A DNA stretch of 64,000 bases, taken from assembly GCF_022508225.1 (NCBI RefSeq), contig NZ_JAETXJ010000002.1, positions 124,001-188,000 on the forward strand, in the 5' to 3' direction. The stretch is from Desulfovibrio sp. UIB00. GTDB taxonomy: Bacteria; Desulfobacterota; Desulfovibrionia; Desulfovibrionales; Desulfovibrionaceae. Position numbers and translations under genes: made by a program. Shown here piece by piece: positions 24,743 to 51,191 of the stretch (its first letter is position 1; each line of letters starts with the position of its first letter). The notes under the pieces were generated by a model. That model had not been told where the DNA came from, searched no databases, and was given only the letters and a program-made list of their open reading frames with translations.

Positions 24743-25012
24743 TTTGGGAGCAGGAAGTCGAAGGTTCGAATCCTTTCGCTCCGACCATATATCCAAGAAA
24801 AATGGATAGTTAGGTGAAAGCCCGACTATCCCTTTCTTGCGTTGAATGGAATCGCCAAAAGTGGCGTGTGGTAGAATTTTTCAGAAAATTACTGTAACTA
24901 TATGATATATATTTAAAAATATCGCGCCACATGGCCACAACTTAAAAAATTGCATCAACGATACAAACGCTTGCGGACATGGGGGCGTTTGGTGCGCGAT
25001 TTGATGTGTGGA
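24743..25012 (+). repeat. att copy 1: tRNA-Pro(UGG) 3' end plus flank (direct repeat)
   Basis: The string TTTGGGAGCAGGAAGTCGAA, then T-arm GGTTCGAATCC and the acceptor end CGCTCCGACCA, is the 3' half of a tRNA-Pro with anticodon TGG. The 5' half is missing: the preceding bases do not complete the anticodon stem. The same sequence recurs at 46275-46544, exactly for the first 48 bp and closely thereafter. It marks the junction between prophage and second element. Confidence 0.88.
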
Positions 25013-25170: not shown

Positions 25171-28100
25171 TTACATTTCTTCATCTGTTGATTTTTCGCC
25201 GTCGTACTGCCATATGCAGGGGCTTAATAAGCGAGCATCTATCGCTTTTAGTGCTCCATATAAAAATGACGAGTGTACAGTACGCCCGATCCGCTTGCTC
25301 ACTAAAGACGCAAGAACATCAACATGTACAGGTTTTAGTACATTCATTTTCATAATATTTTTTGCTGCTTCAGTAGCCGATTCACGACGAGGTTCATTCC
25401 ACTCACGTAGAAAAATATACTTGTCCTGTCCTTGTGTTACTGCAAGGCGTGGATCTAGGACATATAATCCAAAAATTTCATCAGGCGAATATTGCACCTC
25501 AACAACTAGCATGTCTCTTAGTTCTGAAATATGAATACCGGTAGTGCGTTTTTGTAATAAATCTACAAGCTCGCTAAGTAATCTTGGCTGATATTCCCTT
25601 TTTGTCGTAAAATCTCGGTCGTTTAACCCCCAAAGGGAGGTTCCAACCCTTAGCAATGGGTCTGCTCCTATCAACTGAAAATATTGAGAAACGCCACGAA
25701 TTGCACAAACTCGCTGTCTGAGTTCTACAGTTGACAGCGGTCGACCTGCAGCACGAATAACGGTGAGGGCTGTTTCTCGTACTTCTAGGCGGTTAGCTTC
25801 AGATAAGGCTCCAGGAATCGCCCATACCATGCGGCCAAGATTGCGCAAATTGCCACGCCTCTTTAGAGCAAAATCGAGGTGAAATTTGTCAACAGGAGTT
25901 GGGGTATCGTGAAGAAGTTCTATAAGCTCATCGCAGTGCCATTGTCTTTCCATATCATTGTCAAAAACCAAACTTTCTGCATCGCTAGCAAGAGAATCTA
26001 GTTCTTCCTCCTCTATTTTTAAATGCTTGGGTAATCCATATGTACCTCGACCAAAAAGGATGCCAATATTACTGGCTGCTTGAAGGGCTCGGCGTTGGTC
26101 AATTGGCTTGTTTGAAAGATTGGAGGCAAGATCTGCAATTTGGCTATAGTGCAACGGGGTTGGGCTTTCATCAAGAACAGAAAACACCGCGGTCTCAGTA
26201 CCACGCCCTTGCATTTGAAGAACTCTTATTCCATCTTTTTCAGAAAAGGCACAGTGTGCTGAAGTCTTTTTCCATAAAATATTAGAGAACTCTAAAGCAG
26301 TTGCAGGAACGAGCGCAGTTATTATAGTTTTGCAAAATTCTTCAGACCATTGTTGATCTACTCCGGATATTAACAGTTGAACGGCTTCTTTTTGTAGGGC
26401 ACCCCACTTGCCAGACGACATAAAGGAAAAATATTCAATGCCATCTATTGAAATAAGGGAAATACATCCATCTGTTATGCTATTTAAAAGATATCTGATG
26501 ACTTCAGGGTAGTCGCCGATTCCTTCAAACCATGGGTCAACAGCCTCCACACCCAGTAGAGGGAGAGGGTAATCACGACCATTTAGCAGTTTGTGGAGTT
26601 TGCTACTCAACAAGTCGTCCCATGTCTCAACTGCTAGCAGGCGTCTTAGCGCTTTTGCTTCGATCTGACGGATGCGTTCTCGTGTAACTCCATATGAGTT
26701 GCCGATCTCAGCGAGTGTTTGAGGTGAACAATTTAATCCCATCCTCCGTTTAAGTACGTCCGCCTGCTGAGTAGGGAGGGAAGACAGTGTCCTCTGAAGT
26801 GCAGAAAGTAAGGAAGTATCTTCAAGAAAAGTTTGAATACCGTTGCTGATCTCAACAAGTGGGCCACGCTTTAGCGCCAAAAGCAAAGCGTCCATGAGCT
26901 TCCTTACAGAAGTCCAGCCAAAATTGGAAAAATTTAGCAAGTGATTAAGCGTTAACTTTTGTAAATCAGAGATAGAGGTAATATTATTTTTTTGAAATAC
27001 ATTTAAAATTTTGTCTGATACGTCTAATGATTGGATTGTCTGTTCTATCAACCAAGGAGGAGCGCTGTTGGAGAAAAGGCATGGATCATTTTTCGTGTCA
27101 CCAATCAAGTATGTTAACCGAAATTCACCTAGTAATTTTCGCAGGCTATGTTCAAGAATATGCTCATGCTCCATATATGATGGGTCGTCAGTTATCCCAG
27201 CTTCGAGCAATGGGCCTACATAACAAACATTGGAGTCTACAAACGCCTGTAGCCATTTTTCCTTAAAGTACTGACTCGGTTGAGCAGATCCTAAGCCAGT
27301 AACTTCATCAATCCTGTATCCCCGCCCTTTAGTCGCCAAAAAGATAGGGGTATCTCCAATATTATCGACCGGGTTTGAACTTGCTTCAAAGCCATGCGGA
27401 AGTGCAGAAAGTAAGGAAGTATCTTCAAGAAAAGTTTGAATACCGTTGCTGATCTCAACAAGTGGGCCACGCTTTAGCGCCAAAAGCAAAGCGTCCATGA
27501 GCTTCCTTACAGAAGTCCAGCCAAAATTGGAAAAATTTAGCAAGTGATTAAGCGTTAACTTTTGTAAATCAGAGATAGAGGTAATATTATTTTTTTGAAA
27601 TACATTTAAAATTCTAACAGTTAGGTTCAATGAGTGGATTGTCTGTTCTATCAACCAAGGAGGAGCGCTGTTGGAGAAAAGGCATGGATCATTTTTCGTG
27701 TCACCAATCAAGTATGTTAACCGAAATTCACCTAGTAATTTTCGCAGGCTATGTTCAAGAATATGCTCATGCTCCATATATGATGGGTCGTCAGTTATCC
27801 CAGCTTCGAGCAATGGGCCTACATAACAAACATTGGAGTCTACAAACGCCTGTAGCCATTTTTCCTTAAAGTACTGACTCGGTTGAGCAGATCCTAAGCC
27901 AGTAACTTCATCAATCCTGTATCCCCACCCTTTAGTCGCCAAAAAGATAGGGGTATCTCCAATATTATCGACCGGGTTTGAACTTGCTTCAAAGCCATGC
28001 GGAAGTGCATATTTTGCAGATCCGGTGAGCAAAACATGACCAGGAAATCTTTGTGCACAGCAGTCAAATGTATTTGATGGTGAGCGGAAAAATCCTACAT

Positions 28101-28236
28101 GGACTATAGCAGTTGTCTCTCCGTCACTCTGCTGCTCCCACGAGTTTAGAAGAGGTTCAAGGTCTCGGTGTACTTCTACATCCCATATTCCAGTTGCATG
28201 GCGCAGCATCAAAAAAGCCCGAAGAGGAGTTGCCAT
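25171..28236 (-). CDS. Large protein of RNA-polymerase-type DNA-binding domains (alpha-CTD-like, sigma region 4, serial winged helices)
   Basis: A 1021-aa protein. Residues about 77-277 and 278-478 are two near-identical 201-aa repeats, each ending in an alpha-CTD-like helix-hairpin-helix (ILNVFQKNNITSISDLQKLT). Residues about 483-540 are a sigma-70 region-4 helix-turn-helix (SYGVTRERIRQIEAKALRRL). Residues about 675-1000 hold several winged-helix, HARE-like modules (VLDESPTPLHYSQIADLASN; VIRAAGRPLSTVELRQRVCA). No catalytic motif was recognised. I chose ATG 28236, one base after the upstream stop. It is the last gene of the defence-like cassette, so a DNA-recognition or sensing role is inferred. 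Confidence 0.7.
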   Translation of the reverse strand: MATPLRAFLMLRHATGIWDVEVHRDLEPLLNSWEQQSDGETTAIVHVGFFRSPSNTFDCCAQRFPGHVLLTGSAKYALPHGFEASSNPVDNIGDTPIFLATKGWGYRIDEVTGLGSAQPSQYFKEKWLQAFVDSNVCYVGPLLEAGITDDPSYMEHEHILEHSLRKLLGEFRLTYLIGDTKNDPCLFSNSAPPWLIEQTIHSLNLTVRILNVFQKNNITSISDLQKLTLNHLLNFSNFGWTSVRKLMDALLLALKRGPLVEISNGIQTFLEDTSLLSALPHGFEASSNPVDNIGDTPIFLATKGRGYRIDEVTGLGSAQPSQYFKEKWLQAFVDSNVCYVGPLLEAGITDDPSYMEHEHILEHSLRKLLGEFRLTYLIGDTKNDPCLFSNSAPPWLIEQTIQSLDVSDKILNVFQKNNITSISDLQKLTLNHLLNFSNFGWTSVRKLMDALLLALKRGPLVEISNGIQTFLEDTSLLSALQRTLSSLPTQQADVLKRRMGLNCSPQTLAEIGNSYGVTRERIRQIEAKALRRLLAVETWDDLLSSKLHKLLNGRDYPLPLLGVEAVDPWFEGIGDYPEVIRYLLNSITDGCISLISIDGIEYFSFMSSGKWGALQKEAVQLLISGVDQQWSEEFCKTIITALVPATALEFSNILWKKTSAHCAFSEKDGIRVLQMQGRGTETAVFSVLDESPTPLHYSQIADLASNLSNKPIDQRRALQAASNIGILFGRGTYGLPKHLKIEEEELDSLASDAESLVFDNDMERQWHCDELIELLHDTPTPVDKFHLDFALKRRGNLRNLGRMVWAIPGALSEANRLEVRETALTVIRAAGRPLSTVELRQRVCAIRGVSQYFQLIGADPLLRVGTSLWGLNDRDFTTKREYQPRLLSELVDLLQKRTTGIHISELRDMLVVEVQYSPDEIFGLYVLDPRLAVTQGQDKYIFLREWNEPRRESATEAAKNIMKMNVLKPVHVDVLASLVSKRIGRTVHSSFLYGALKAIDARLLSPCIWQYDGEKSTDEEM
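26796..28008 (-). repeat. 603-bp in-frame tandem duplication
   Basis: Copies 26796-27398 and 27399-28001 are in phase (201 codons) and identical by eye except for nine substitutions clustered in 21 bp (27011-27031 versus 27614-27634) and one other near 27328/27931. The short string GAAGTGCA occurs at both junctions. Confidence 0.9.
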
Positions 28237-28237
28237 A

Positions 28238-28612
28238 TTAACTTGCCTTGTTTTCAACTTGCTCCAAGAGCGCAACAAAATCGATATCTTTCGTCTGGGC
28301 TTGAGCATAAAGTTCATTAACCCCCCATTCTGCTAAACGCTCAATTAGCCTGTATGGGGTGGTTTCTCTGAGGTCATCTTCGAACAAAGACTCAACGCTC
28401 TGTTTTAATAGTTGATCTGGATCTAGGGAGCCTATGTTGAGAAAGGGCTTTCGTTTGGCTATTTCCTGGGGAACAACACCTTGTGCGATGCCAAGAGCTA
28501 CTGCAAAGCGATATCCGTCCATTTTTTCCGCAAAAATTCCAAGTTCTTTAAGTTCATCAAGCTTAGTATCGCCAGCTTCAGATAAGCCAATGGTCGTAAG
28601 CTCTGTCATCAT
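28238..28612 (-). CDS. Small helical protein between the ATPase and the sigma-like gene
   Basis: A 124-aa protein, MMTELTTIGLSEAGDTKLDE onward, helical, with RFAVALGIAQGVVPQEIAKR. Size and position beside a DndD-like ATPase recall DndE, but the sequence match is weak. It overlaps the ATPase stop by ATGA at its start and ends one base before the next ATG, so it is tightly coupled in the cassette. It may be an adaptor or subunit; function unknown. Confidence 0.6.
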   Translation of the reverse strand: MMTELTTIGLSEAGDTKLDELKELGIFAEKMDGYRFAVALGIAQGVVPQEIAKRKPFLNIGSLDPDQLLKQSVESLFEDDLRETTPYRLIERLAEWGVNELYAQAQTKDIDFVALLEQVENKAS

Positions 28613-30591
28613 TTTTTCCTTTCAATCCTAGATTGGGTATCTGTGACTTCCATAATTTCATAAGCAGCACCGATTTTATGTTTGATCGAAGCAAGATCTG
28701 TTTCAGGGCGAATCTCCCCACCGTGAACAAGAAGTACAAATTGGCTAGAAACTTTTGGCAAATAATTCATAATATTATCTCTATGCTTCGGATCTAAACG
28801 ACCAAAAGGAGTATCCATAATAATAGGTCCGATAGCACGGCCTGTCCTATTAAGGCCATCAATCAATGAAAGTGCAACAATATGTTCTGCCCCAGCACTG
28901 CGGATTGAGACTTTACGACCTTGACTGTCAAGGATGCTCAAGCCGTAGCTGTCATTAATTACAAGCCCACGATAGGCCTTTTGTGATATCATATTTATGA
29001 AAGCTTCATTTGCAAAATGCTCTACAATTTTGCGAAGGCGATCACGCAGGCGTTCGATGCTTACTTGAAAGATTTTTTCCAGAGCGGTTACCATTGATAC
29101 TTTTAAAGTGCTTTTTTGTTTTCTGGCTCCAGCTAATCCTTCAATTGCTTTCTGAGAAACTAGAAGCTTCTCTTTCACTTGCTGGATGTCACAGCTTTTA
29201 TTTTTAATAGATTCAGTTAATCGTCCTTCTTCTTTAAATTTATCATCTTTTAATACTCTTTTTCTTGCAAGCTCTGCAGTGTCATGCCCGGCTATCTGAT
29301 CTTCAATCCGTGCTATTTCGTTCTCAGATTTTTGCATCTCAACTTCTGCGCTACGGATATCACGGTCAATTGAAATTAACCTTTCCTTTGCATTAACTCC
29401 CTTAATTTTATTGAGGATCTCGAGTTGAGCGGATATTGCATTTAGTTCTAGCTGCACATCCCGTTGCTGAAACTTTTTTGCTTCAAGCTTTCCGAATTTT
29501 GTTCCGAGTTGTTCGCGTAAATTCTCAGGAAAAGGTTGCTGGCATGTGGGGCATTCTTTTGTGCTGAGTATATTTTTTATGTTAGCTATCTCTGCGTCGA
29601 GGTGCGACTGCTTGACTAATGTATCATATAAATTTTTTTGGCGAGATGTAAGAATATCCCGTTTTGTATTCAGCTTTGCTGAAAGAAGATCTTTCCATGA
29701 TTCTGCAAGCAAAGCCTTTCGCTCTATCTTTTTTCTTGAAGCAAGCTCTTGCTGTGTTTTAGCAGTATCTTTTGCAGCATCCAACTTGGCTTTTAAGGCT
29801 AAAACTGATGCTGCAGCGTCGAGATCGTCCTCTAGCTTTTCTCGTTCAATTTTTATACTTTCCAATCTCTTTTGTAGATCCTTGAGGTCTCCTTCGTGTG
29901 TGTCAAGCAGGGCGGTAAGGCTAGCATTTTTTTCGGCTTGTGCCTTAAGGCAATCGAATTGTGAAAGATCGTGATTTTGTCGTTTTTGTGCTGCTTTTAA
30001 AATAGCGCCAAGCTCATCTCTACCATTAATGAGCGCAGGAACCCCCAAAACTTGCTCAATCGCTTCTTTTATTTGCCTCCCTTGTTCACTACCTTCCACA
30101 AGCAACTCTTCATATTGATCAAGCAGTTCGCCATCGAAAAGAAAAAAACGGGAAAGTTGTTCGGGTGCTATTTTGTCTATTTCTGACTCAAACTGATCAC
30201 CACGTAATATAACCCCGTCACGAGATAGGAATGGGGTTACTATAAAGTCATCCGGTTTGGTTGGACACGTTATCTGAGGCCGTTTCTCTGCGGTGCGTCG
30301 GAGTTCATATATATGCTCTTCTTCTTCAAATACAATGTGCACCTCAATTTCCCAATCATCTTCTGCGGCAGCATCTTTATTAATAATATTCTGAAGAGGA
30401 ATTGGGCGAGAATGTCGCCCCATTGCGGTATTGTAAAAACCCCATCGAAGGGCATTTATTAGCGATGTCTTTCCGCGCATGTTGTCGCCCAGGACGAGCA
30501 TTATATTGCGCGAGTCATCCATGGGAAATTCAATAGAATTTAAGCCTTTATATGGCATAAAATTTTTCATTGTCAATTTAATGAGCTTCAT
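28609..30591 (-). CDS. DndD/Rad50-like SMC-type ATPase with zinc hook
   Basis: A 660-aa protein. Walker A GDNMRGKTSLINAL is near residue 35, a long coiled coil follows, and a zinc-hook motif CPTCQQPF sits near residue 345. After the second coil come the ABC signature region IRSAGAEHIVALSLIDGL and the Walker B IIMDTPFGRLDPKHRDNI near residue 590. The DTPxGRLDxxHR form is typical of DndD and related ATPases. Known role of the class: DNA-binding, ATP-driven complexes in DNA modification or restriction. It overlaps both neighbours by 4 bp. No dndB/C genes are seen, so sulfur modification is not implied. Confidence 0.82.
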   Translation of the reverse strand: MKLIKLTMKNFMPYKGLNSIEFPMDDSRNIMLVLGDNMRGKTSLINALRWGFYNTAMGRHSRPIPLQNIINKDAAAEDDWEIEVHIVFEEEEHIYELRRTAEKRPQITCPTKPDDFIVTPFLSRDGVILRGDQFESEIDKIAPEQLSRFFLFDGELLDQYEELLVEGSEQGRQIKEAIEQVLGVPALINGRDELGAILKAAQKRQNHDLSQFDCLKAQAEKNASLTALLDTHEGDLKDLQKRLESIKIEREKLEDDLDAAASVLALKAKLDAAKDTAKTQQELASRKKIERKALLAESWKDLLSAKLNTKRDILTSRQKNLYDTLVKQSHLDAEIANIKNILSTKECPTCQQPFPENLREQLGTKFGKLEAKKFQQRDVQLELNAISAQLEILNKIKGVNAKERLISIDRDIRSAEVEMQKSENEIARIEDQIAGHDTAELARKRVLKDDKFKEEGRLTESIKNKSCDIQQVKEKLLVSQKAIEGLAGARKQKSTLKVSMVTALEKIFQVSIERLRDRLRKIVEHFANEAFINMISQKAYRGLVINDSYGLSILDSQGRKVSIRSAGAEHIVALSLIDGLNRTGRAIGPIIMDTPFGRLDPKHRDNIMNYLPKVSSQFVLLVHGGEIRPETDLASIKHKIGAAYEIMEVTDTQSRIERKK

Positions 30592-30806
30592 GAATTTCTG
30601 CCTTCTGCTTCAATATTGTCAGGAATTGCTGCATCAATTAAGCGCTCCATCGCAGAGGATGATTGTTCTCTGGATTGGTTGAATTGATGTTTGTATTGTA
30701 TCTCAAAACACTGATGTATAAGTTTTTCATCAATCTCTTGAGCTAGCTCTGTACGAACGGCGAGGAGAACTTCAAGTGCAATATTATGATCGTTTTTATA
30801 GTTCAT
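30588..30806 (-). CDS. Small cassette protein of unknown function
   Basis: A 72-aa protein, MNYKNDHNIALEVLLAVRTE onward, predicted helical. It overlaps the helicase gene by 11 bp and the ATPase start by 4 bp (ATGA), which supports its being a real coupled gene. No motif was recognised. Small linkers of this kind are common between helicase and ATPase genes of multi-subunit defence systems. Confidence 0.6.
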   Translation of the reverse strand: MNYKNDHNIALEVLLAVRTELAQEIDEKLIHQCFEIQYKHQFNQSREQSSSAMERLIDAAIPDNIEAEGRNS

Positions 30807-32910
30807 CTTCCTCACTCCCTACATCACCCATTATTTCGTCAGGGTTAATGCCTAGATTAATTGCAATAGAACGCAATTCTGCCCCTGCAGCTTTGTTGAC
30901 GGCATTATTGGCAAACTCAATCGCCCGTAATAACTCTGCTTTAAGCAAGCTCACTTGCTCTGGTTCTTTTTCTACGTCAACTGGAATAACAATAGCATCA
31001 TGGATAACAGCGATGTACTTCTCTGGTGATTTTCTTAGAACACGCCCTCTTCGTTGGATAAACTGTCGTGGATTTTGTGACGAGGCCAAAATTAGCGCAT
31101 GCGAAACATCAGGAATATCGACGCCCTCATCTAAACATTTTATGGAGATCAGAATTCCTCCATATCTTTTGAACCACCCCATCGTCGCATCACGATCGCC
31201 ACTCATATTAGAATGATATTCAAGCGGCGTGTAACCTGCTTCATGTAGCGAGATTTTAATGTCATTTAGCTGACCACTATCCTCGCAGTAGACGAGCCAA
31301 CTTTGGCCTTCTTCAAAGTACTTCCTAATAACATCACACGCTAACTGAACTTTAGAAAAAGCTTTTTTTGCAATTCTTGAGCGTTTAATTAGCAGCATTC
31401 TTGCTCGTTCGCTTAAGACTCTATTTCCATTAGTATCAAGCTGTTGTTTTGCCACCTCCAATTGTATCATTCGACTCTCTTTGCGCCATTCTTCGGCTTC
31501 AAGATTGGTAAGGTGAACAGAATGTGGATGGTACTCATAAGGAACAAGTCTGCCAGCTTTTACTGCATCTTGTAATGTTACGGGCGGTGGTATTACGCCT
31601 TCAAAGAATGCAAATAAGCGGTTAGTGCCTTCAGGATCCCCATAACGCTTTGGAGTGGCACTTAATCCAAGTCGCGCCCCAGCGTTTAAATCAAATATTT
31701 TTGAATTCCTTGGACTGCCAAGTTGGTGAACTTCATCAGCTATTAGCAATAGGTGCTCACCGGCACAGATTTTACTGCGGAATAGTGGTTGAGACGCAGT
31801 GGGCATCATGGCTAAAACGACGCGGGGCCCAAGGGCGGGGTCAGGATCTGTCATACTTTTGAGGCGATCCCCTTGTTTCCATCGGTCAAATCTTCCCCCA
31901 GCAAGAAGTACTGTCGTATCAGGTAATTCCATGGCTATTTCTCTTGCCCACTGTTCATGGAGTAGGACGCTTGGTACAAGTATTAACGCGGGCAATCCAA
32001 GCTGGAGATGTTTGCGCAGAGCAAGAAGTGCGGTGAAAGTTTTTCCACTTCCGGTTGCATGCTCAAGGATTCCGCGACGGCCATGATTTTCCCATTCGGA
32101 TATCGCGGATATTTGATGAGGTAACCCCTCTCTTGTAGAGAAAGAATGTGTAGTGTCAGTAGATGTCAAAAGCTCATTTATATCAGATGCAGAAAATTTT
32201 TTCATATATTCTTCGACGGTCTTAGGGAACTTTGTGACAGATATATGTGGGTCTTTTTCAGACCAAAGTGACTCAAAATGTTTTATATGTTTTTGAACTC
32301 GTATTTTTTCTAGGCCATCTCGCCAATTGCAAAATACCTCAATGGATTCAAAGTTTCCATTGTCGTGCCATCCATTCCACGTTTCGTTGCTTGAACCTTT
32401 AAAACTTACGGTATTTCCAGAGCTATCGGAAAAAAGTCCTAACTTTTCGTGATAGAGACCTCTTTGTCCAATACGCTCTGCTAATTTGATTTCCAGGCAT
32501 CCCAAAGATATAAATGTCGCAAGGGCCCTAGCCCCCATGAATGTACGCGTATCACTCAATAACGCGTCAAACTGCGATATCAAAGAACGTTCCACAGTGG
32601 TTGATCGAAGCCGATAGCCAAGCGCAATCTGCTCGACATCATCATGCTCAAGGTTGGGGGAACATATAAGCTGAATTTGCCCACCTTGTTTTGCAAATTC
32701 AGCAACAGGTATTCCTATAACTGTAAATACGGTAGACCTAAAATAACCCACGGCACGGCGATAGCTTTGGGACTTCCTAAGGCATTTAATGTAGAACTGT
32801 TCAATAGGATGTTCCTTAGCAGTACGATATTCTGTCTCAAATACACAACTGCTTAAATCCCCATAGTTGGCTGTGAACTTGTTTTCTGTGTCGTGGTCAA
32901 AGATTGACAT
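30796..32910 (-). CDS. PLD-domain SF2 helicase
   Basis: A 704-aa protein. Residues about 20-190 are a phospholipase D-like nuclease domain with HEKLGLFSDSSGNTVSFKGS near residue 152 (an HxK motif with following Gly-Ser-Asn). Residues about 270-650 form an SF2 helicase: Walker A ATGSGKT near 287, DEVH in LLIADEVHQLGS near 390, LGLSATP, and QFIQRRGRVLRKS near 618. Such fusions occur in restriction-like defence systems. It lies 39 bp downstream of the methyltransferase. A restriction or translocation role is inferred. Confidence 0.85.
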   Translation of the reverse strand: MSIFDHDTENKFTANYGDLSSCVFETEYRTAKEHPIEQFYIKCLRKSQSYRRAVGYFRSTVFTVIGIPVAEFAKQGGQIQLICSPNLEHDDVEQIALGYRLRSTTVERSLISQFDALLSDTRTFMGARALATFISLGCLEIKLAERIGQRGLYHEKLGLFSDSSGNTVSFKGSSNETWNGWHDNGNFESIEVFCNWRDGLEKIRVQKHIKHFESLWSEKDPHISVTKFPKTVEEYMKKFSASDINELLTSTDTTHSFSTREGLPHQISAISEWENHGRRGILEHATGSGKTFTALLALRKHLQLGLPALILVPSVLLHEQWAREIAMELPDTTVLLAGGRFDRWKQGDRLKSMTDPDPALGPRVVLAMMPTASQPLFRSKICAGEHLLLIADEVHQLGSPRNSKIFDLNAGARLGLSATPKRYGDPEGTNRLFAFFEGVIPPPVTLQDAVKAGRLVPYEYHPHSVHLTNLEAEEWRKESRMIQLEVAKQQLDTNGNRVLSERARMLLIKRSRIAKKAFSKVQLACDVIRKYFEEGQSWLVYCEDSGQLNDIKISLHEAGYTPLEYHSNMSGDRDATMGWFKRYGGILISIKCLDEGVDIPDVSHALILASSQNPRQFIQRRGRVLRKSPEKYIAVIHDAIVIPVDVEKEPEQVSLLKAELLRAIEFANNAVNKAAGAELRSIAINLGINPDEIMGDVGSEEDEL

Positions 32911-32949
32911 TGCTATGTCACCTCAGCATGCATTTAACGCGCGAAATTT

Positions 32950-33987
32950 TTAACTATCTTTAAAAAATTTAAATCTACCGCGTGACCCTTCTATGTAGTC
33001 AGCATTAGCCTCAACGCAAACCCATCTTCTGTGCATTTCTTCCGCCACAGAGCCAGTAGTATTTGATCCACCAAATGGATCAAAAACTAAGTCACCCTCA
33101 TCTGTCAAAAATTGTATAAAGAAAGCAGCTAACGCAGACTGCATTCTGGCTGGATGAGATGGTAGTCCATTATCTTTGCAAAATTCTCTATATTCAGCAT
33201 CCCATTTTGTTCCAGTAAACTTTAAGAGTGATTCGGGATAATGTATTCCTGTTGTGTCAAGAACATTTGGGCCAATTGCCCCACCATGATTCTTTAAAAA
33301 TCCAGTCTCAGAAATCACATGCCCAGATGGACGCATCCCAGCATTATATTTTTGCGTCTTAAGCAGTCGTTGCATGTCTTTACTGTACGGGTTGAGGACC
33401 TTACGATTATCTGACTTGGGATAGGGTGTTTTTGATAGCCACCAGACGTGAGTATATGAGTCTTTTAGTCGAATCCTTCTCAGGGTTACCCAAGCCGCTG
33501 GGCCGGGAAGGCGAGCAGGGTTATGACATATTATATGTTGGCATAGATGAAGTCCTGATGCCTCTTTGAAAGCAAGAAGGGCTTCAAGTGGCAATGTCGA
33601 CATTGTTGGAATACCTGCTTCCCAAGCGTTTCCAATCTCAATGATGACTGAACCATCTTCTGTTAAGAGTTCTGTCAATCCATTTGAAAGGGAACATAGC
33701 CAATCTACATAAGCTTTTCCAGTCTCATTCCCGTATCGCTTTTTTCTTACGAGGGGAAACGGGGGGGAAGTCAAAATTAAATTTATTTTACCCTTTAAAT
33801 TTTTCAAGGGAGCATTTGCAAGAGCATCTTCAATAGAGCTATGTAACATTTCTCCAAAATCAGTTTTATAATAATGTGCAATTCTATTGCGAGAACAATC
33901 ATCATTTTTTTTTATTATTTTACGCACAGTACACCCTTGGGCCTGCCAGAATACGTTTCGAAACAGTTGTTTTAAGGTCATGATCAT
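32950..33987 (-). CDS. Beta-class DNA methyltransferase (N4-cytosine or N6-adenine)
   Basis: A 345-aa SAM-dependent DNA methyltransferase with catalytic motif IV LTSPPF near residue 74 preceding the SAM-binding motif FDPFGGSNTTGSVAEE near residue 302. This order is the beta class, and SPPF favours m4C though m6A cannot be excluded. The middle part (about residues 120-280) would contain target recognition. It is the first gene of the leftward cassette, likely marking self DNA. ATGs at 33987 and 33981 are both possible starts. Confidence 0.85.
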   Translation of the reverse strand: MIMTLKQLFRNVFWQAQGCTVRKIIKKNDDCSRNRIAHYYKTDFGEMLHSSIEDALANAPLKNLKGKINLILTSPPFPLVRKKRYGNETGKAYVDWLCSLSNGLTELLTEDGSVIIEIGNAWEAGIPTMSTLPLEALLAFKEASGLHLCQHIICHNPARLPGPAAWVTLRRIRLKDSYTHVWWLSKTPYPKSDNRKVLNPYSKDMQRLLKTQKYNAGMRPSGHVISETGFLKNHGGAIGPNVLDTTGIHYPESLLKFTGTKWDAEYREFCKDNGLPSHPARMQSALAAFFIQFLTDEGDLVFDPFGGSNTTGSVAEEMHRRWVCVEANADYIEGSRGRFKFFKDS

Positions 33988-35058: not shown

Positions 35059-35424
35059 ATGGATTGTAAAGATTGGCAGCTTATTTGTTGTTACACCAGA
35101 CAAAAAGCTCTTGATGATGGTGTTCTGGTAGATGTATCAGACTTTGTAAGTGATTTTGGATTCATTGTTCCAGTAGCAGTTACAGCAACGCTTTTTAACG
35201 GCTACATTCTGCCAAGTGCAAAATTGGTTGAATCTGGACAAACATCCGAATCGCGTATGATCGATCTGCTATTGATTCTGCTGCTGAAGATCATGGCACG
35301 GCCCCACACAGATCGGATCACATTTAATGTGAGCTTCGACATGGAAGTGGGGGAGGGCATTGAACCTCGACTCGTGCAAGTTATCGCTGCAATTGCCCTG
35401 GTGATTCTGGTGAGCCTGTATTGA
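35059..35424 (+). CDS. DUF6573-like protein
   Basis: A 121-aa protein. The segment CCYTRQKALDDGVLVDVSDF is the signature opening of DUF6573 proteins, common on integrative elements and plasmids; function unknown. The end of the protein (about residues 102-121, RLVQVIAAIALVILVSLY) is unusually hydrophobic for the family and could be a membrane anchor or reflect an altered C terminus. A terminator follows at 35459. Confidence 0.65.
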   Translation: MDCKDWQLICCYTRQKALDDGVLVDVSDFVSDFGFIVPVAVTATLFNGYILPSAKLVESGQTSESRMIDLLLILLLKIMARPHTDRITFNVSFDMEVGEGIEPRLVQVIAAIALVILVSLY

Positions 35425-37579: not shown

Positions 37580-38311
37580 ATGGAAACAGGCAATAGCAAA
37601 TTGTTATGCACAATTGCACCGGCACGGCTCAAAGCATTCGTAAGATTATTGAAAATGATTGTTAAAATTCACGGCCCACAGCCACTCCATTTTCAAGATG
37701 GCTGCCTTACGCAAACAATCGGGGGTAACAACTTTGTTGTAGAGCTGGATGCGAAGAATTTTTTCAGCAACCCAAAGGGCTTTACAGTAAGCATCATAGC
37801 CACAGAGCACCATCTTCAGCAGCTCTCGTTCATCACAAGCTCTGATGCCAAGATCTATGACAAGGAGGACGAGCTGTTTTTTTGCGGGAGCCATACAGCA
37901 GGGACACTTTTAAAATCATCCCACGCTGCCCCTCTCGTAGAAACACCATTTTTGCAAGGTGCTCAGAAACTGGGGGAAGATGTGCGGGTTGTAGATCCTG
38001 GCGGGCTTTTGAGATTTGTGGGCAAGGCACAACTTGTAAACTTGCTGAGCTTTCGTGGGCAGCTTGAGCAGATAATCCCACGCGGGAAACAGCCATACAC
38101 TTTGTGCCCAGCATCATTGGAAACTTTGTCCGGTCAGCAGTCTGATGCCGTTTTCGTATCAAGCCATTTCCTGTCTCTGGCAGGAAAGTTAGAGCTGACT
38201 CTGAGTCTTTGGCGCAACGAGGAGGGGGTGTGGCTCAAAACTTCTTCACGCTCAAATATGGTTAATGCACTGACCACCTACGAATTATTGCATGAAGGCA
38301 CTATAAACTAA
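37580..38311 (+). CDS. Clamp-like protein of unknown function
   Basis: A 243-aa protein preceded by GAGGAGG. Alternating beta-strand patterns (GGNNFVVELDAKNFFSNPKG; GVWLKTSSRSNMVNALTTYE) give the impression of a sliding-clamp-like fold, and a clamp would fit between a replicative helicase and a DNA-modifying enzyme, but no diagnostic motif is present. It ends 10 bp before the next ATG and is co-transcribed. The clamp idea is a guess to be tested by structure prediction. Confidence 0.45.
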   Translation: METGNSKLLCTIAPARLKAFVRLLKMIVKIHGPQPLHFQDGCLTQTIGGNNFVVELDAKNFFSNPKGFTVSIIATEHHLQQLSFITSSDAKIYDKEDELFFCGSHTAGTLLKSSHAAPLVETPFLQGAQKLGEDVRVVDPGGLLRFVGKAQLVNLLSFRGQLEQIIPRGKQPYTLCPASLETLSGQQSDAVFVSSHFLSLAGKLELTLSLWRNEEGVWLKTSSRSNMVNALTTYELLHEGTIN

Positions 38312-38321
38312 GGAGAATGTG

Positions 38322-39632
38322 ATGAACTACGTCTATGTGGCTGGAGGACAGCAAAATCAGGGGGCATTGGACCTCGCCATAACGCGGCAAACTAAAAACG
38401 CTCTGCACTCTTTAGTTGGAGGATTAAAGCAGGCAGATTTTGGATTGCACACCATAGAGCAGGTGACAGCGGATATTCGCCAGTTTTCAACGTTGAACAC
38501 CGTGCCAGTTGGAGGAAAGATTTTAACAGATAGCGGTGGTTATTCTTTTCTGCGGGAAGACATAGAACCAAGCTTAATTCAAATGCTCATTGACTGTTAT
38601 GCCGTATATTTTGAAAGTGAATATGAAACATATGAATATATTTTTTCTCTTGATATGCCGTATAGTGCAAAGTATCATGGCTTCAATAATAAAAAAGATA
38701 TATATTCTGCAAATGAAAGATATTTAAATTCAGCAATTAGAATTATTGAATCGAATCAAGCGTTGCAAGCAAAGTACTACTTTGTCTGGCATTTTAAGAT
38801 GACTAGCCAGTTTACAATGTGGAACAATCTTTACAAAAATTTGGATCTCGGGAGGTATGTACGCAACCATGCTATTGGGGGGATGGTGGGATTAAAAAGA
38901 GCAACAGGAATTCGGTTTTCACCCTTCACAGCAATGAGTTATCATGCTCTTAATTCATACTTAAATAGTAGCTTTGTCGGTAAAGAATTTCGGCTGCACT
39001 TTTTGGGCATTTATTCGCCGCAGGATCGTTTCCACATTGCCTTTCTGGAAGCATTATTCCAGGAATATCTCGCAGGTATCTCAACTGTTGCAATGAGTTA
39101 TGATTCAATTAATCCGATGCAAGTCGCAAGAATGAATAAGAAAATTCCATTTTTTAATTTAAAAGATGGCAACCTTGAAGTATATAATTCTGTAAGTGAA
39201 ATTCCAATTTCTATAGTTCATAGTGTTGCAACAAGCCCAGAGCATGTACAGGTAATACTGGAAGAAATTGATAGAAGAAATAATGGATTTAGGTTGCAGA
39301 ATGCAGGATCATTTGGGCCATTTAATGTTTATAGTAATCTTGAGCTGGATAAATTTTTTGAAATGCTCATTAAGAAATATGATTTGGTATCAGTGATGAA
39401 ACGTTCAACAAGTCCGACAGGTCTCATTAGTTGCATTGGGAAAGTCCTTGACGATTTGAGTCGAGATTATCCACAGGTTTTTACCCGTTCGGTACAACAA
39501 TCGATCCAGCAAACTTTTGAGCGTTCTTGGCGCTGGCATAATTGGTTTGTTAACGGACGCAATCCTCAAGTTGCGGAGGAGCTGATGCTGAAAGTCATTA
39601 ATGAAATAGGGTTCCCCAATATGATATGCTGA
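38322..39632 (+). CDS. tRNA-guanine transglycosylase-like protein, DpdA type
   Basis: A 436-aa protein with TGT-fold blocks: LTDSGGYSFL near residue 70 (the conserved catalytic Asp of TGT), HAIGGMVGLKRATGIRFSPF, HFLGIYSPQDRFHIAFLEAL and AMSYDSINPMQVARM near residue 260 (position of the nucleophile Asp). The Cys-rich zinc site of true TGTs is not seen. This combination is typical of DpdA proteins that insert 7-deazaguanines into DNA. AGGAG precedes the ATG at 38322. No dpdB/C or preQ0 synthesis genes are nearby, so precursor supply would come from the host. Confidence 0.65.
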   Translation: MNYVYVAGGQQNQGALDLAITRQTKNALHSLVGGLKQADFGLHTIEQVTADIRQFSTLNTVPVGGKILTDSGGYSFLREDIEPSLIQMLIDCYAVYFESEYETYEYIFSLDMPYSAKYHGFNNKKDIYSANERYLNSAIRIIESNQALQAKYYFVWHFKMTSQFTMWNNLYKNLDLGRYVRNHAIGGMVGLKRATGIRFSPFTAMSYHALNSYLNSSFVGKEFRLHFLGIYSPQDRFHIAFLEALFQEYLAGISTVAMSYDSINPMQVARMNKKIPFFNLKDGNLEVYNSVSEIPISIVHSVATSPEHVQVILEEIDRRNNGFRLQNAGSFGPFNVYSNLELDKFFEMLIKKYDLVSVMKRSTSPTGLISCIGKVLDDLSRDYPQVFTRSVQQSIQQTFERSWRWHNWFVNGRNPQVAEELMLKVINEIGFPNMIC

Positions 39633-41669: not shown

Positions 41670-42327
41670 TGGATTTGATTTCTCCTTTTCTCCAATAAAA
41701 TATTCTTTTTGATTACTACAATAATTATTATATTTTAGGTGAGGTGATTGGTAGAGCTTGATCCATGTAACTGGAGCTTGAACACCAGTAATTTTTAAAA
41801 AAACTTATTAATTATAATTTATAATTTTTTATAAACTATAATATATAAAGTATTTTTAAAATTATTGGTGGTATTCGTGCCGTTCAAGCGTAAGATACAG
41901 GTTATCAAGCATGTTCAAGAAATTCCAATTAAATTCCAATTTGTAATGATATTATTAAATTTACATAAAGAAATTTTCATTTATAAGGAGGAGCGAAATA
42001 CAAAATACATCAAGATACAATTAAAGTTGATTTCATTTTGATTCAAATAATATAGATATTTTAGTTAAATATTAATTAACGGCAAGGGCAGTGGTCAAGT
42101 AAAATTGGCTGCTGCTCTTGTTTATGGAGGTTCAAGTTGAATTTAGCAATGCAATTGTGGAAGCTACAATTCATAGCAAGGAATTCAAAGTTGTTCAGAA
42201 AGATTGTAGTTGAAATTATAGTCACCATCTTGAAGAGTAGGATTTAATCAAAGAGTGTTCACGCACTCTTTTTTATTGCTTAAATATACAGATATTCTTC
42301 ATTAAAATAATCTTAATGGAGGATAGT
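41670..42327. other. Gene-free AT-rich stretch with terminator
   Basis: Very AT-rich. A 29-codon frame at 42124-42213 (MEVQVEFSNAIVEATIHSKE onward) is open but has no convincing ribosome site. A terminator hairpin AAAGAGTG/CACTCTTT plus T run sits at 42250-42274, indicating that some transcript ends here. Nothing else is supported. Confidence 0.4.
42250..42274 (+). terminator. Terminator upstream of the 42328 gene
   Basis: Stem AAAGAGTG / CACTCTTT with a 6-nt loop, then TTT. Confidence 0.75.
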
Positions 42328-42741
42328 ATGAGTAAGAAATCATCTGATTCAAGTGTTGATAAGGTTAAGAAGCAGGAATCAAAGTATGATGCAAATGTGT
42401 TGCGGGATTTGATTCGGAACGGCAAAACCGCTTCGGAAATCATGCTGGCAATGGATATTGGTCATAAGCAGATTCTGAAGCATCACGTTTTGAAACTGAT
42501 CGCTACGGATAAGGAGTTCTACGAAGTACCTGGGCTGTATGACAAGAATCGCCGCAAGGCCTTCGTGAATAGCCGTGGTGAAATCCGATTGAGGATGCCC
42601 AATATTGATTTCAAAGGCATGCCCCTGAAGCCTGAAACCGAGTTTGATGTGGTGGTGGAAGATAATAAGATCATCCTGATTCATCTCGGATTGGAAACGA
42701 AACCAGTTTCGCAAGATGCTTCTACTGAGCTTAGCGAGTAA
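42328..42741 (+). CDS. Small AbrB-like putative DNA-binding protein
   Basis: A 137-aa protein. The N-terminal half has a helix-turn-helix-like segment (VLRDLIRNGKTASEIMLAMD). The C-terminal part (about residues 75-120: VNSRGEIRLRMPNIDFKGMP, then EFDVVVEDNKIILIHL) resembles an AbrB/SpoVT swapped-hairpin domain. The ATG at 42328 follows GGAGG. It ends before a terminator. It is a possible regulator of the recombination genes downstream. Confidence 0.55.
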   Translation: MSKKSSDSSVDKVKKQESKYDANVLRDLIRNGKTASEIMLAMDIGHKQILKHHVLKLIATDKEFYEVPGLYDKNRRKAFVNSRGEIRLRMPNIDFKGMPLKPETEFDVVVEDNKIILIHLGLETKPVSQDASTELSE

Positions 42742-42779: not shown

Positions 42780-42976
42780 TTTTAAGCAAGCGGAATTGCT
42801 TAAAAATGGAACGACCGATTTGTACCAGAATCGGACATTCAAATGTTTGACGGGTTGAAATCAAATAAATTCAGCCTGTTATATGGAGTTCCAAGGGAAA
42901 CCCTATTCCTGTCCCCAAAATGAATGTCCAAATTCTTGGACTTTTCATAACGAAACGTAAATTGGAGTACATGATC

Positions 42977-43537
42977 ATGAAGGTGCAGCCAATTACTGAT
43001 CTGAAGGATATTAAGCGCATCAAGCGATTGTTGTCATCAAATCCGAGAAATATGTTGCTATTTATAATGGGTATCAACGCAGGATTACGAGTTCAAGATA
43101 TTTTGGCATTGCGTGTGAGTGATGTTGAAAATGCTGTAGTTGGAGATCGTGTAACTGTGTTGGAAAAGAAGACGAAGAAAGAAAATGTGCTCATCATTAA
43201 CCAGGAAATTTATGATGCCGTGCAACGATACCTGACCTTTCATAAGAAGCGTGTTCCGAGTGAGTTCCTGTTTAAGAGCCGGAAAGGTTGGAACTACCCG
43301 CTGAGCACATATGCTGTGACGCACATGGTTCAGGGCTGGTGCGATGAAATCAATCTGGCCGGCAATTACGGTGCTCATACCCTTCGTAAGACGTGGTGCT
43401 ACCAGCAACGAAAGCTCTATGGTGTATCGTGGGAGTTACTCGCGAAAAGGATGAACCATTCGAACCCCGCAGTTACTCGGAGGTACTTGGGCATCCAAGC
43501 CGAGGAAGTAGAGGAAGTGTTGCTCAATGCTATTTGA
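42977..43537 (+). CDS. Catalytic-domain-only tyrosine recombinase
   Basis: A 186-aa protein with all catalytic boxes: Arg in GINAGLRVQDILALRV, Lys region EKKTKKENVLI, HTLRKTWCYQQRKLYG, NHSNPAVTRRYLGI with the Tyr nucleophile. It lacks an N-terminal arm or core-binding domain. GGAG lies 9 nt before the chosen ATG (another at 42971). It is not like the full integrase downstream and may act in resolution or multimer control of the element rather than in integration. Confidence 0.8.
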   Translation: MKVQPITDLKDIKRIKRLLSSNPRNMLLFIMGINAGLRVQDILALRVSDVENAVVGDRVTVLEKKTKKENVLIINQEIYDAVQRYLTFHKKRVPSEFLFKSRKGWNYPLSTYAVTHMVQGWCDEINLAGNYGAHTLRKTWCYQQRKLYGVSWELLAKRMNHSNPAVTRRYLGIQAEEVEEVLLNAI

Positions 43538-43949: not shown

Positions 43950-45026
43950 ATGAGTGTTTACGAGCGTGATGGCCGGTGGGGCTGCGCTTACAAAGGGCCA
44001 GATAACAAACGGCACGATAAATCCTTCGGGTACGGCCCCAGTGCTGAAGCCGCTGCTTATGCTTTTGACGCGGCGATGAAGTCCCGCGCCTTGGTTCCAT
44101 TTGTCCAACAGCCCATTGGCCCTGTGCTGAGGCAAGCTGTTGATAGCTATCTAGACCACCTGCGTGCTCAAGGTAAAAGCCAGTCGCACATCAGCAATGT
44201 GCAGTACATGGCGACAAGCCTGCTTTACAAGCACTTTGGGCCGTTGATGCCACTTGATATGATCAACTATTCTGACGGGATAGTTCCATTTATTAACCAT
44301 ATGCGGTCAATTCCAAGCAGCAGAACAGGTGCAGTACGTTCACAAGCAAGCGTTAATCGGTATTGTTGTTTTCTGAGGACTATCTTCAACTATGCTGTGG
44401 CAAATGGTCTGATGGCTCAAAATCCGATGACTCAGTGGCACAAAACGAAGGAACCGCCGAGGCAGTTTCAGATCACGCTTGAGGATGTTGCTAGGATCAT
44501 GAAGCATGCCGATGTTCATGTGAGATGGGCAATCGAAGTGTGCTTTAACCTTGGTGTGCGTTCGGGCGACTCAGAGCTGCTCTCGCTGCGCTGGATCGAT
44601 GTGGATTGGGAGCGGAAGCAGGTGCGGGTGTATGGCAGGAAAACTAAAACCTACCGGGTCATCCCGGTAAAAGATGCTTTCCTTGAGCGGTTGAGGAAAA
44701 TGCGGGCTATCAGCCTGACAGAATTCATCATTGAATACCGTGGCAAGCGGGTTAATCGGATTCAGAAAGCGTTCAGAATGGCTTGTCGCAGAGCAGGGAT
44801 TGAACATTCCGTTCGAATGTACGACCTGAGGCATATGTTTGCAACATTCATGTTGTCAAACGGAGCAGACCTTGCCGCTGTATCAAAGCTCCTGGGCCAC
44901 TCCAGCGTAACAATGACCGCCAACGTGTATTACCAATACCTTGAGGGCGAGAAGGAACGGGCAGTGGCACTGTTACCAGAACTTCCGCCTCTTGGGCAGT
45001 CGATAGTTCCGCAGCCTTCACTTTAG
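43950..45026 (+). CDS. int: Integrase of the second element (tyrosine recombinase)
   Basis: A 358-aa integrase: arm domain (residues 1-50), core-binding domain, and catalytic domain with GVRSGDSELLSLRW, MYDLRHMFATFMLSNGADLA, LLGHSSVTMTANVYYQYLEG. GGAGG precedes its ATG. It is related to the prophage integrase at 23578-24702, fitting a common tRNA-Pro target. A terminator follows. Its presumed arm sites are the 21-bp repeats at 46102-46180, more than 1 kb downstream beyond two cargo genes. Confidence 0.92.
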   Translation: MSVYERDGRWGCAYKGPDNKRHDKSFGYGPSAEAAAYAFDAAMKSRALVPFVQQPIGPVLRQAVDSYLDHLRAQGKSQSHISNVQYMATSLLYKHFGPLMPLDMINYSDGIVPFINHMRSIPSSRTGAVRSQASVNRYCCFLRTIFNYAVANGLMAQNPMTQWHKTKEPPRQFQITLEDVARIMKHADVHVRWAIEVCFNLGVRSGDSELLSLRWIDVDWERKQVRVYGRKTKTYRVIPVKDAFLERLRKMRAISLTEFIIEYRGKRVNRIQKAFRMACRRAGIEHSVRMYDLRHMFATFMLSNGADLAAVSKLLGHSSVTMTANVYYQYLEGEKERAVALLPELPPLGQSIVPQPSL

Positions 45027-46064: not shown

Positions 46065-46180
46065 CGCCAAAAATGATGCAGCTGATGTTCCATGAAAAGA
46101 ACGCCAAAAACGCCAAAGTGTACACCAAATACGCCAAACAATTCACCAAAAACACCAAAAGATACGCCAAAAACGCCAAA
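46065..46180. repeat. Regular 21-bp (9+12) iteron array of CRCCAAA next to att
   Basis: Nine copies of CGCCAAA or CACCAAA start at 46065, 46102, 46111, 46123, 46132, 46144, 46153, 46165 and 46174. From 46102 the spacing alternates strictly 9, 12, 9, 12, 9, 12, 9 bp, i.e. a 21-bp period, two helical turns. Position 95 bp before the att copy suggests integrase or Xis arm sites, or an origin-type iteron set. Confidence 0.85.
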
Positions 46181-46274
46181 GTGTATGTGGCGTGATTGGT
46201 GCGAGCCACATGAACTTGTATGAGCGTATAAATAATGTATAAGTATTTGTAATGATTATAAATAAGGTTGATTT

Positions 46275-46544
46275 TTTGGGAGCAGGAAGTCGAAGGTTCG
46301 AATCCTTTCGCTCCGACCATATACCCAAGAAAAAGGGATAGTTAGGTGAAAACCCGACTATCCCTTTCTTGCGTTGAATGGGATCGCCAAAAGTGGCGTG
46401 TGGTAGAATTTCTGGAAAAATTCATGTAACTATATGATATATATTTAAAAATATAGCGCCACATGGCCATAACTTAAAAAGTTGCATCAACGATACAAAC
46501 GCTTGCGGACATGGGGGCGATTGGTGCGTGATTTGGTGCGGGGG
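46275..46544 (+). repeat. att copy 2: tRNA-Pro 3' end plus flank
   Basis: Second copy of the direct repeat at 24743-25012 (offset 21532 bp). It again holds only the 3' half of tRNA-Pro, ending CGCTCCGACCA. It is followed by a hairpin at 46327-46371 (AGGGATAGT / ACTATCCCT with flanking AAGAAA/TTTCTT), the terminator expected after the tRNA. It bounds the second element on the right. The complete tRNA-Pro gene is not in the window. Confidence 0.85.
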
Positions 46545-50318: not shown

Positions 50319-51191
50319 TCACCCGAAGAGGCTCAGTTGCCTGTGGGCCTGCTTTTCTTCAAGAGTTTTCATATATTGAAAAATCGGCTCAGGCTCATGC
50401 ATGATGCCATGCTGCAAACAGTAATGGCGGGAAAAGTCCATCAGGTATTTGTTGTTTGGACTGCTCAGTATGTATTGCGTGCCATAGGCCCGGATGTATT
50501 TTTCCTTCATTCCGGGAAAGTGCCGATCAAGCTGGCTATAGAAGTATTGCCGGTTCCCCTGGCGAAGCGTCATTCCCATGCCAAAATTAATGATGCCGCG
50601 CACATTTGCCTCGGCGCAGTACTCCAGAATCCCCGCGATATTTTCTTTTGTATCATTGATGAAGGGGAGTATGGGGCAAAGCCATACCACAGTCGGTATC
50701 CCTGCATCGCGCAAGCGAAGCAGCACGTTAAAGCGCTCCTTTGTGGTGCTTACGTTCGGTTCCAGCTTTTTGCACAAATCTTCATTGTGTGTGGTCAGGG
50801 TTATCTGAACAACGCATTTGGTCTTTTCATGAATTTTTTGCAACAGGTCGAGATCGCGCAGTATCCGATCTGACTTTGTGATCACGGTAAAGCCAAAGCC
50901 ATGCTCATGTATCAGCGACAAGGCCTTTCTGACATTTCCGATTTCCATTTCTGCCGGAATGTATGGATCTGTCATGGAGCCTGTGCCAATCATGCACTTT
51001 TTGCGTTTGCGCTGAAGTGCGTTATCAAGCAGCTCTATGGCGTTTTCCTTTACTTCTATATCTTCAAACTCATGCTCCATGCCATAGCAAGCGCTGCGCG
51101 AATCGCAGTAAATACATCCATGCGAACATCCGCGATAGATATTCATGCCGTTTTTAGCGGATAAAATTTCCTTTGCTTTCACAAAATGCAT
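50319..51191 (-). CDS. Radical SAM protein of the SPL/Rv2578c type
   Basis: A 290-aa radical SAM enzyme. The [4Fe-4S] motif CSHGCIYCD has Cys22, Cys26 and Cys29, preceded by NIYRG. Further blocks GTGSMTDPYIPAEM and TVITKSDRILRDLDLL are typical of spore-photoproduct-lyase-related SPL family proteins (Rv2578c group) found widely in non-sporulating bacteria. The reaction is not known for this group. It is monocistronic and convergent with the chemoreceptor. Confidence 0.8.
   Translation of the reverse strand: MHFVKAKEILSAKNGMNIYRGCSHGCIYCDSRSACYGMEHEFEDIEVKENAIELLDNALQRKRKKCMIGTGSMTDPYIPAEMEIGNVRKALSLIHEHGFGFTVITKSDRILRDLDLLQKIHEKTKCVVQITLTTHNEDLCKKLEPNVSTTKERFNVLLRLRDAGIPTVVWLCPILPFINDTKENIAGILEYCAEANVRGIINFGMGMTLRQGNRQYFYSQLDRHFPGMKEKYIRAYGTQYILSSPNNKYLMDFSRHYCLQHGIMHEPEPIFQYMKTLEEKQAHRQLSLFG

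Follow-up and report, generated by a model that had tools for sequence, protein, structure and literature searches.

A predicted transglycosylase-like enzyme beside a putative PCNA-fold clamp in a satellite-like integrative element of Desulfovibrio that may chemically disguise its own DNA

A tRNA-integrated element with its own replication genes

The window, i.e., the whole 64,000-nucleotide stretch of Desulfovibrio sp. UIB00 DNA analysed here, contains a 21.5-kb integrative element (Table 1). It shares its tRNA-Pro integration site with a 38.6-kb P2-like prophage, the two forming a tandem array. Copies of 25 bp from the 3′ end of the tRNA-Pro(TGG) gene (C2:110099-110175) occur at both attachment repeats of the element, which stand inside a 269-nt direct repeat. 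The prophage occupies C2:110151-148787, so that window positions 1-24787 are its right part. It carries genes for the portal, the large and small terminase subunits, the scaffold, the major head protein, a neck or tail-completion protein and the sheath, and its right end bears a gene of the integrase cluster of the element. Scanning of element proteins revealed no structural gene (PHROGs was run on seven of them), and a cos site shared by element and prophage was not found, the matches between the two being those of the attachment sites and one of 18 nt (E = 0.038).

Table 1. Features of the element and their supporting evidence (window coordinates)
Feature	Position	Strand	Basis
Left attachment repeat, tRNA-Pro 3′ end, element start	24763..24787	+	
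Restriction/defence cargo: PbeC/DndD-like, PbeA/Dnd-restriction-like (dnd_restrict_1-like), DNA methyltransferase	28609..33987	-	PADLOC, NCBIfam
DUF6573-like small protein	35059..35424	+	cluster c6 in 7 loci; L024 homologue matches DUF6573
P4-type primase C-terminal/SF3-like helicase domain (D5_N, DUF5906), 453 aa	36182..37543	+	Pfam, PHROGs, TIGR01613
Putative two-domain PCNA-fold sliding-clamp-like protein, 243 aa	37580..38311	+	AF2, Foldseek, VIA-align
Predicted TGT/DpdA-like transglycosylase, 436 aa	38322..39632	+	AF2 model, Foldseek/VIA-align to TGTs, conserved motifs
P-loop ATPase, helicase-like, weakly assigned, 578 aa	39933..41669	+	homologues in L019, L022, L026, L028, L032
Small conserved protein, cluster c2, without family match	42316..42741	+	10 copies in 9 loci
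Tyrosine recombinase 2	42920..43537	+	Pfam Phage_integrase 2.7e-19
Tyrosine integrase 1	43950..45026	+	Pfam Phage_integrase 5.6e-26
Right attachment repeat, tRNA-Pro 3′ end, element end	46295..46319	+	

We refer to the element as satellite-like because it combines a P4-type primase domain and recombinases with no structural gene among the proteins scanned. The initial annotation had already described the surroundings as a satellite-like replication module, and this description is borne out by the integration at a tRNA gene, the P4-type primase domain, the putative clamp and the tandem arrangement with a P2-like prophage. P4-like satellites have in common with the element the primase domain (TIGR01613), a tRNA attachment site and a P2-like prophage in the same attachment site; the element differs from them in the addition of a putative PCNA-fold clamp and a tRNA-guanine transglycosylase (TGT)-like enzyme, and a shared cos site was not found.

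The core of the module is a run of three genes that encode the P4-type primase-helicase, the clamp-like protein and the TGT-like enzyme, the last two lying 10 bp apart. The first product matched Pfam D5_N (1.4e-21) and TIGR01613 (8.5e-85); its N-terminal primase part is missing, since full-length phage primase models are matched only from about residue 320-400 onwards. The AlphaFold (AF2) model of the second (pLDDT 86.1, pTM 0.83) points to a two-domain PCNA fold, with 9-1-1 and PCNA proteins as the top Foldseek matches (E = 1.4e-6) and a best VIA-align superposition of Z 15.6 (rmsd 3.2 over 209). Its sequence retrieved nothing from the PDB and had no match in the phage collection, and PDB profile searches with the enzyme alignment and with the clamp alignment yielded nothing meaningful. 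The enzyme gene was originally placed between a clamp-like and a helicase-like gene: the clamp-like neighbour upstream stands, with a predicted PCNA fold, whereas the downstream neighbour is only weakly assigned and the clearer helicase lies upstream, in the primase-helicase gene.

Further features accompany this module. The minus-strand restriction genes of Table 1 and a gene for a 1,048-aa protein (25171-28317, minus strand), which contains two near-identical 300-nt copies (26796-27095 and 27399-27698), constitute Dnd/Pbe-like restriction cargo of the same element. A 21-bp repeat (ACGCCAAAAACGCCAAAGTGTA and variants) occurs four times in tandem at window positions 46101-46185, left of the right attachment site. 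The direct repeat continues at 93% identity for ~225 nt past the tRNA 3′ end (window 24788-25011 and 46320-46543), which suggests a further element or remnant to the right of 46319. On that side, as far as ~57 kb, most of the sequence has a lower GC content than the flanks (0.58-0.66).

The transglycosylase-like protein and its relatives

The mechanically called open reading frame of the enzyme starts at an in-frame GTG at 38319, 3 nt before an ATG at 38322, and its stop codon ends at 39632. We prefer the ATG as the start because an AGGAG sequence precedes it at 38311-38315 and the closest homologues start there. The ORF is real, in agreement with the original call. Both Asp-bearing blocks named in the initial annotation (LTDSGGYSF and YDSINP) are present, and their Asp positions are invariant in the 21 aligned members. 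The full set of residues invariant in 21/21 comprises D71SGGY75, L111, D112, P114, G187, G188, H227, L229, G230, R237 and D262. The zinc-binding Cys motif, which had been noted as lacking, is indeed absent: CxCxxC occurs in none of 30 family members (from 27 distinct loci, as L075, L076 and L081 duplicate L023, L025 and L028; L077 is cut by a contig end), and no Cys column reaches 19/21 in the alignment of 21. All 12 host TGTs extracted carry CxCxxC...H (they derive from 13 loci, L099 having been dropped from local extraction). The Asp-block pair, formulated as DSGG[FYL] followed after 120-260 residues by [YF]D[SCT], matched 63 of 443 ORFs of at least 300 residues from the collected loci, a count in which overlapping loci enter more than once, versus 2 of 8,860 shuffled ORFs, and the pattern is thus more than chance. 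By locus and position, all 63 were assigned to TGT, DpdA2 or the enzyme family.

Structure prediction had been proposed as a check on this locus. The AF2 model built from 15 sequences (pLDDT 89.4, pTM 0.91) places the enzyme in the TGT superfamily by fold, with a predicted TGT-type barrel carrying the DSGG and second Asp blocks. The 50 VIA-align rows listed were all tRNA-guanine transglycosylases, headed by 1j2b_A (Z 17.9, rmsd 5.0 over 317 aligned, 12% identity). Foldseek retrieved 4htb (2e-5) and the archaeosine TGT 1j2b (4.3e-5) as top PDB matches, and its 18 PDB matches at E up to 0.001 consisted of 11 TGTs and 7 other TIM barrels. The latter (the putative tagatose kinase 2fiq, N-acetylglucosaminidases and a hexosaminidase) superimposed at an rmsd of 16-21 and were interspersed from rank 6 on. 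We rejected an unrelated TIM-barrel identity, given that the VIA-align rows listed hold TGTs alone. Among viral models (BFVD), the matches included a 'tRNA guanine transglycosylase' of Achromobacter phage Motura (5.7e-8) and protein R9TGF0 of Vibrio phage nt-1 (2.4e-7, rmsd 16), which has 464 aa, the same length as the nt-1 DpdA2 gene product.

Among 348 genomes of the class, 14 (its own included) yielded matches to the enzyme; the weakest of these, in G130 (E = 0.008), was not recovered when BLAST was run later. Alignment A1 consists of 14 homologues and the window protein, and was drawn from 16 regions after leaving out a 178-aa fragment (L033) and a region without a hit (L034). Its profile detected eight viral loci in IMG/VR, on contigs of 22-315 kb, which, with L037 (a near-copy of L036) and L042 left out, extended the set to the 21 sequences of alignment A2. 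The A2 profile in turn detected nine loci in named genomes, and when the viral scan was repeated with an alignment weighted towards phages, it gave seven records, all of them already found. The window protein had no sequence match in named phage and plasmid collections, and two phage relatives had none in the named-phage collection (three members queried in all). The L024 member likewise found nothing in the plasmid collection, and single-sequence scans of genome contigs and viral contigs gave no match.

The enzyme family is unnamed in the libraries scanned. The window protein had no significant match in Pfam, PHROGs, NCBIfam or PADLOC, and Pfam matched no family member convincingly. The TGT profile PF01702 matched none of the 15 A1 members, and in a search of the own genome it listed the chromosomal tgt alone and not the enzyme ORF. 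Titles and abstract openings in the openly accessible literature disclosed no report of the family, or of a TGT homologue beside a clamp in satellite-like elements.

To place the family, we compared it with the known DNA transglycosylases, DpdA of phage 9g, which introduces preQ0 into DNA (PMC6884629), and DpdA2. The names DpdA1, DpdA3 and DpdA4 do not appear in the available portion of that source. The 9g family corresponds to phrog_887 (the 9g protein scores 2e-98), and the DpdA2 proteins of nt-1 and Moby to phrog_10773. Of the 15 A1 members, 8 matched phrog_887 with E values of up to 10, weakly (best 2e-6), and in seven bacterial members viewed singly the match spans the first catalytic block alone. 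Two of six phage members matched at E = 0.006-0.007 and the other four had no match at 0.01; the window protein had none. The PADLOC DpdA model hit 1/15 A1 members (E = 0.013). phrog_10773 was not among the matches listed for A1, nt-1 DpdA2 matched the family neither by BLAST nor by hmmsearch, and local 9g-type and DpdA2 HMMs returned nothing convincing. Ten phage records, nt-1 and 9g among them, contained no match to the A2 profile, in a run without a positive control.

Profile-profile comparison (hhalign) of the family with a six-sequence DpdA2 alignment gave probabilities of 69% in local and 96% in global mode, with all motifs in order, and 0.9% for A2 against nt-1 DpdA2 alone. The link to DpdA2 is not specific, however, because the host TGT alignment reached a similar score with those six DpdA2 sequences (66%, local). 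This control weakens the DpdA2 label only and left the odds of the best explanation as before. Comparisons with 12 host TGTs (2.6%) and with a 9g-type alignment (4%) were uninformative, the latter alignment consisting of 9g and two usable homologues (L088 contributed a 10-residue fragment only). Because control comparisons with the 9g-type alignment fail as well (TGT, 0.7%; DpdA2, 1.7%), hhalign cannot rank the closeness of these groups at this depth, and for this reason we treat the family as a third DpdA-like lineage rather than a member of DpdA or DpdA2. On visual inspection, the order of motifs is common to the enzyme, host TGT, 9g DpdA and nt-1 DpdA2, and a His three residues before Gly (HxxG) is found in the enzyme, 9g and nt-1, with Tyr in its place in host TGT. 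The nt-1 His read in this way is not obviously in line with the account in PMC6884629, which describes DpdA2 as lacking the His196 of 9g.

In sum of likeness, 9g-type DpdA shares with the enzyme its TGT-like character, the motif order, the HxxG His and a gene that adjoins a clamp gene; the enzyme is ~120 residues longer (436 vs 317 aa), its profile matches are weak and come via relatives, and its bacterial-element neighbourhoods here have no que genes. DpdA2 of the nt-1 type is of similar size (403-464 aa) and has collinear motifs, and an nt-1 protein of equal length is among the best BFVD matches, whereas BLAST and HMM matches are absent and the TGT-DpdA2 control scores as high. tRNA-guanine transglycosylases (PF01702) share the predicted fold and the Asp blocks, and the enzyme departs from them in lacking the zinc motif and a PF01702 match and in its neighbourhood. 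The enzyme appears to belong to a zinc-less lineage of the TGT superfamily parallel to DpdA and DpdA2, with weak sequence links to both. The original name DpdA is favoured by the predicted fold, the weak matches of relatives and the gene co-occurrence described below, and it is disfavoured by the window protein itself, which matches no DpdA, DpdA2 or TGT model. The earlier reading was largely sensible, its DpdA label and its host-queuosine source being weaker than stated.

Clamp adjacency and 7-deazaguanine genes around the homologues

Gene clusters shared around the homologues comprise the P4-type primase/helicase, the clamp, the enzyme, the small conserved protein and two tyrosine recombinases. 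In 14 of 18 bacterial loci, a clamp gene stands next to the enzyme gene, in varying orientation. Eleven pairs are in tandem and no more than 64 bp apart (one, in L024, is a 50-bp overlap that depends on the start codon chosen), two are convergent (L027, 62 bp; L030, 60 bp) and one is in tandem at 553 bp (L029). Eight of these loci are training members of the A5 clamp model; L019 (cut by a contig end), L077, L079, L027 and L030 are independent A5 matches (4e-40 to 0.001), and the L029 clamp was linked through BLAST to that of L027. The loci without a clamp are L028, L031, L032 and L078, the last on a contig with only 806 bp upstream, and L080, L082 and L083 were left out of the tally, their neighbours being judged phage-like. 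In L027, L029 and L030, a gene for an AAA_25-type ATPase (cluster c27; Pfam was run on L027 only) is nearby in place of the P4 primase. Persistence of the clamp-enzyme adjacency through such rearrangement argues for a working link of the two proteins. In phage 9g, dpdA lies 8 bp from a gene annotated as replicative clamp. A PIP-like motif was detected in 1 of the 30 family members (L039).

The viral relatives frequently carry genes for 7-deazaguanine synthesis. QueC was identified in six of eight viral records with a family member (L036 and L037 among the six look like copies), against 322 of 50,697 named phage records, a rough background only, as the comparison mixes methods (Pfam profile vs one tblastn query) and record sizes. 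QueD was present in five of seven such records and a standard TGT (PF01702) in none of the seven tested. In L041, QueE follows the enzyme gene at a distance of 9 bp, and it is also present in the loci of L036, L037, L038 and L040, up to ~6 kb away. The L042 and L043 records, which may be fragments, have neither queC nor queD. Two phage records searched in pieces with local models contained no other TGT, DpdA or DpdA2 (a gene at a piece boundary could escape this search) and no FolE, and both carry a clamp of the family found in the element (1e-29 and 5e-13). No que gene was detected in the bacterial-element loci examined with HMMs built from 2-5 seeds, which divergent copies can escape.

The bacterial Dpd island and TGT-bearing BRC systems (PMC12839542) likewise combine a TGT homologue with a mobile or defence setting; the context here is a primase-clamp operon instead. 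None of the neighbours of the enzyme scanned was assigned to DpdB, DpdC, PglZ or BrxC. PADLOC searches of 15 element proteins (in part limited to the best 25 families each) found no DpdB or DpdC, and only weak helicase matches to DpdE and DpdF.

A possible replication-coupled base exchange and its alternatives

7-Deazaguanine bases in DNA have been described for phages and for a bacterial defence island. Here a DpdA-related enzyme, as we read it, stands inside the replication operon of satellite-like integrative elements and beside a putative PCNA-fold clamp; what is new and of interest is the proposed coupling to the clamp and a lineage shared with large que-bearing phages. Because an enzyme of the guanine-swapping type adjoins the element's own DNA-copying and clamp genes, this small mobile element of a sulfate-reducing bacterium may chemically disguise its own DNA. 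If this is true, satellites too disguise their DNA, and the link to the clamp would explain how newly made DNA is marked.

The explanation that we favour, with a probability of roughly 0.6, is that the enzyme exchanges G for a 7-deazaguanine in DNA copied by the element, that the clamp loads or holds the enzyme and that the copies thereby escape restriction. Upon excision, the element would replicate with its own helicase/primase and clamp and a host polymerase. The PCNA-fold clamp would load or hold the transglycosylase near the fork, on nascent DNA, where the invariant Asp pair would cleave the glycosidic bond of dG and the enzyme would insert a 7-deazaguanine (preQ0, preQ1 or similar), presumably drawn from the host's queuosine supply by way of host synthesis or import. 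Excised, replicating copies of the element modified in this way would escape restriction. A more elaborate version is tentative, and we regard it as somewhat improbable as a whole: a satellite with clamp-guided, replication-coupled base exchange that modifies only its own copies at the expense of the host queuosine supply, by means of a third lineage of DNA transglycosylases shared by satellites and large phages, with radical-SAM tailoring in some elements.

The substrate could instead be RNA, the enzyme being a divergent TGT that alters host or element tRNA (or other RNA) during replication of the element or phage. TGTs that act on tRNA have the fold predicted for the enzyme, and the host genome carries tgt and queC. 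We nevertheless consider action on RNA unlikely in view of the absence of the zinc motif from all 30 members, the position of the gene in a replication operon beside the clamp, the normal TGT already present in 13/13 carriers and the relation of the family to phrog_887, the 9g DpdA family. Since all carriers have a normal TGT, genes of the queuosine pathway are expected in these hosts anyway.

Host genes also bear on the base that a DNA exchange would insert. QueC is full length in 9 of 13 carrier hosts, so that preQ0 synthesis by the host cannot be the general source. Three of the four carriers without it (G274, G154, G270 and G074) have a strong match to Vut_1, the family of the YhhQ transporter, and G274 has neither; a full QueC or a strong Vut_1 match is thus present in 12/13. 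This pattern is compatible with the 7-deazaguanine idea and not specific to it. The four hosts without full QueC would suit an exchange with another purine, perhaps finished by a radical-SAM enzyme, or a glycosylase that leaves abasic sites. So would the SPL-like radical-SAM genes (CxxxCxxC) that are neighbours of the enzyme gene in L019, L021, L024 and L025, and of the clamp gene in L023. Such a reaction is improbable given the co-occurrence of the phage relatives with queC, queD and queE and the 12 carriers with a possible supply by QueC or Vut_1.

It is very unlikely that the enzyme is defence cargo, i.e., a self-mark for the opposite-strand Pbe/Dnd-like restriction genes: these genes and the methyltransferase do lie ~4-10 kb upstream in the same element, but they are outside the clusters shared with the neighbourhoods of relatives (~10 kb on each side), which include primase, clamp and enzyme, and they adjoin a methyltransferase of their own. 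A protein that has lost catalysis and serves as a structural or DNA-binding replication factor, for which the case is only circumstantial, is hardly to be expected when 21/21 members from elements and phages keep the presumed catalytic Asp residues.

Other genes recur around the operon. In L027, an SPL-like radical-SAM gene lies ~2 kb from the enzyme or clamp gene, and L021, L024 and L025 have a second radical-SAM copy, which neighbours a member of a third gene family (DUF927 in L024). The radical-SAM gene of the window (50319-51191) was rejected as part of the system, its product being 21% identical to the first of the relatives' group and its position outside the element. Genes of the DUF5131 family are found near the same operon in L022, L023 and L029 (by Pfam in L022 and by cluster in the other two).
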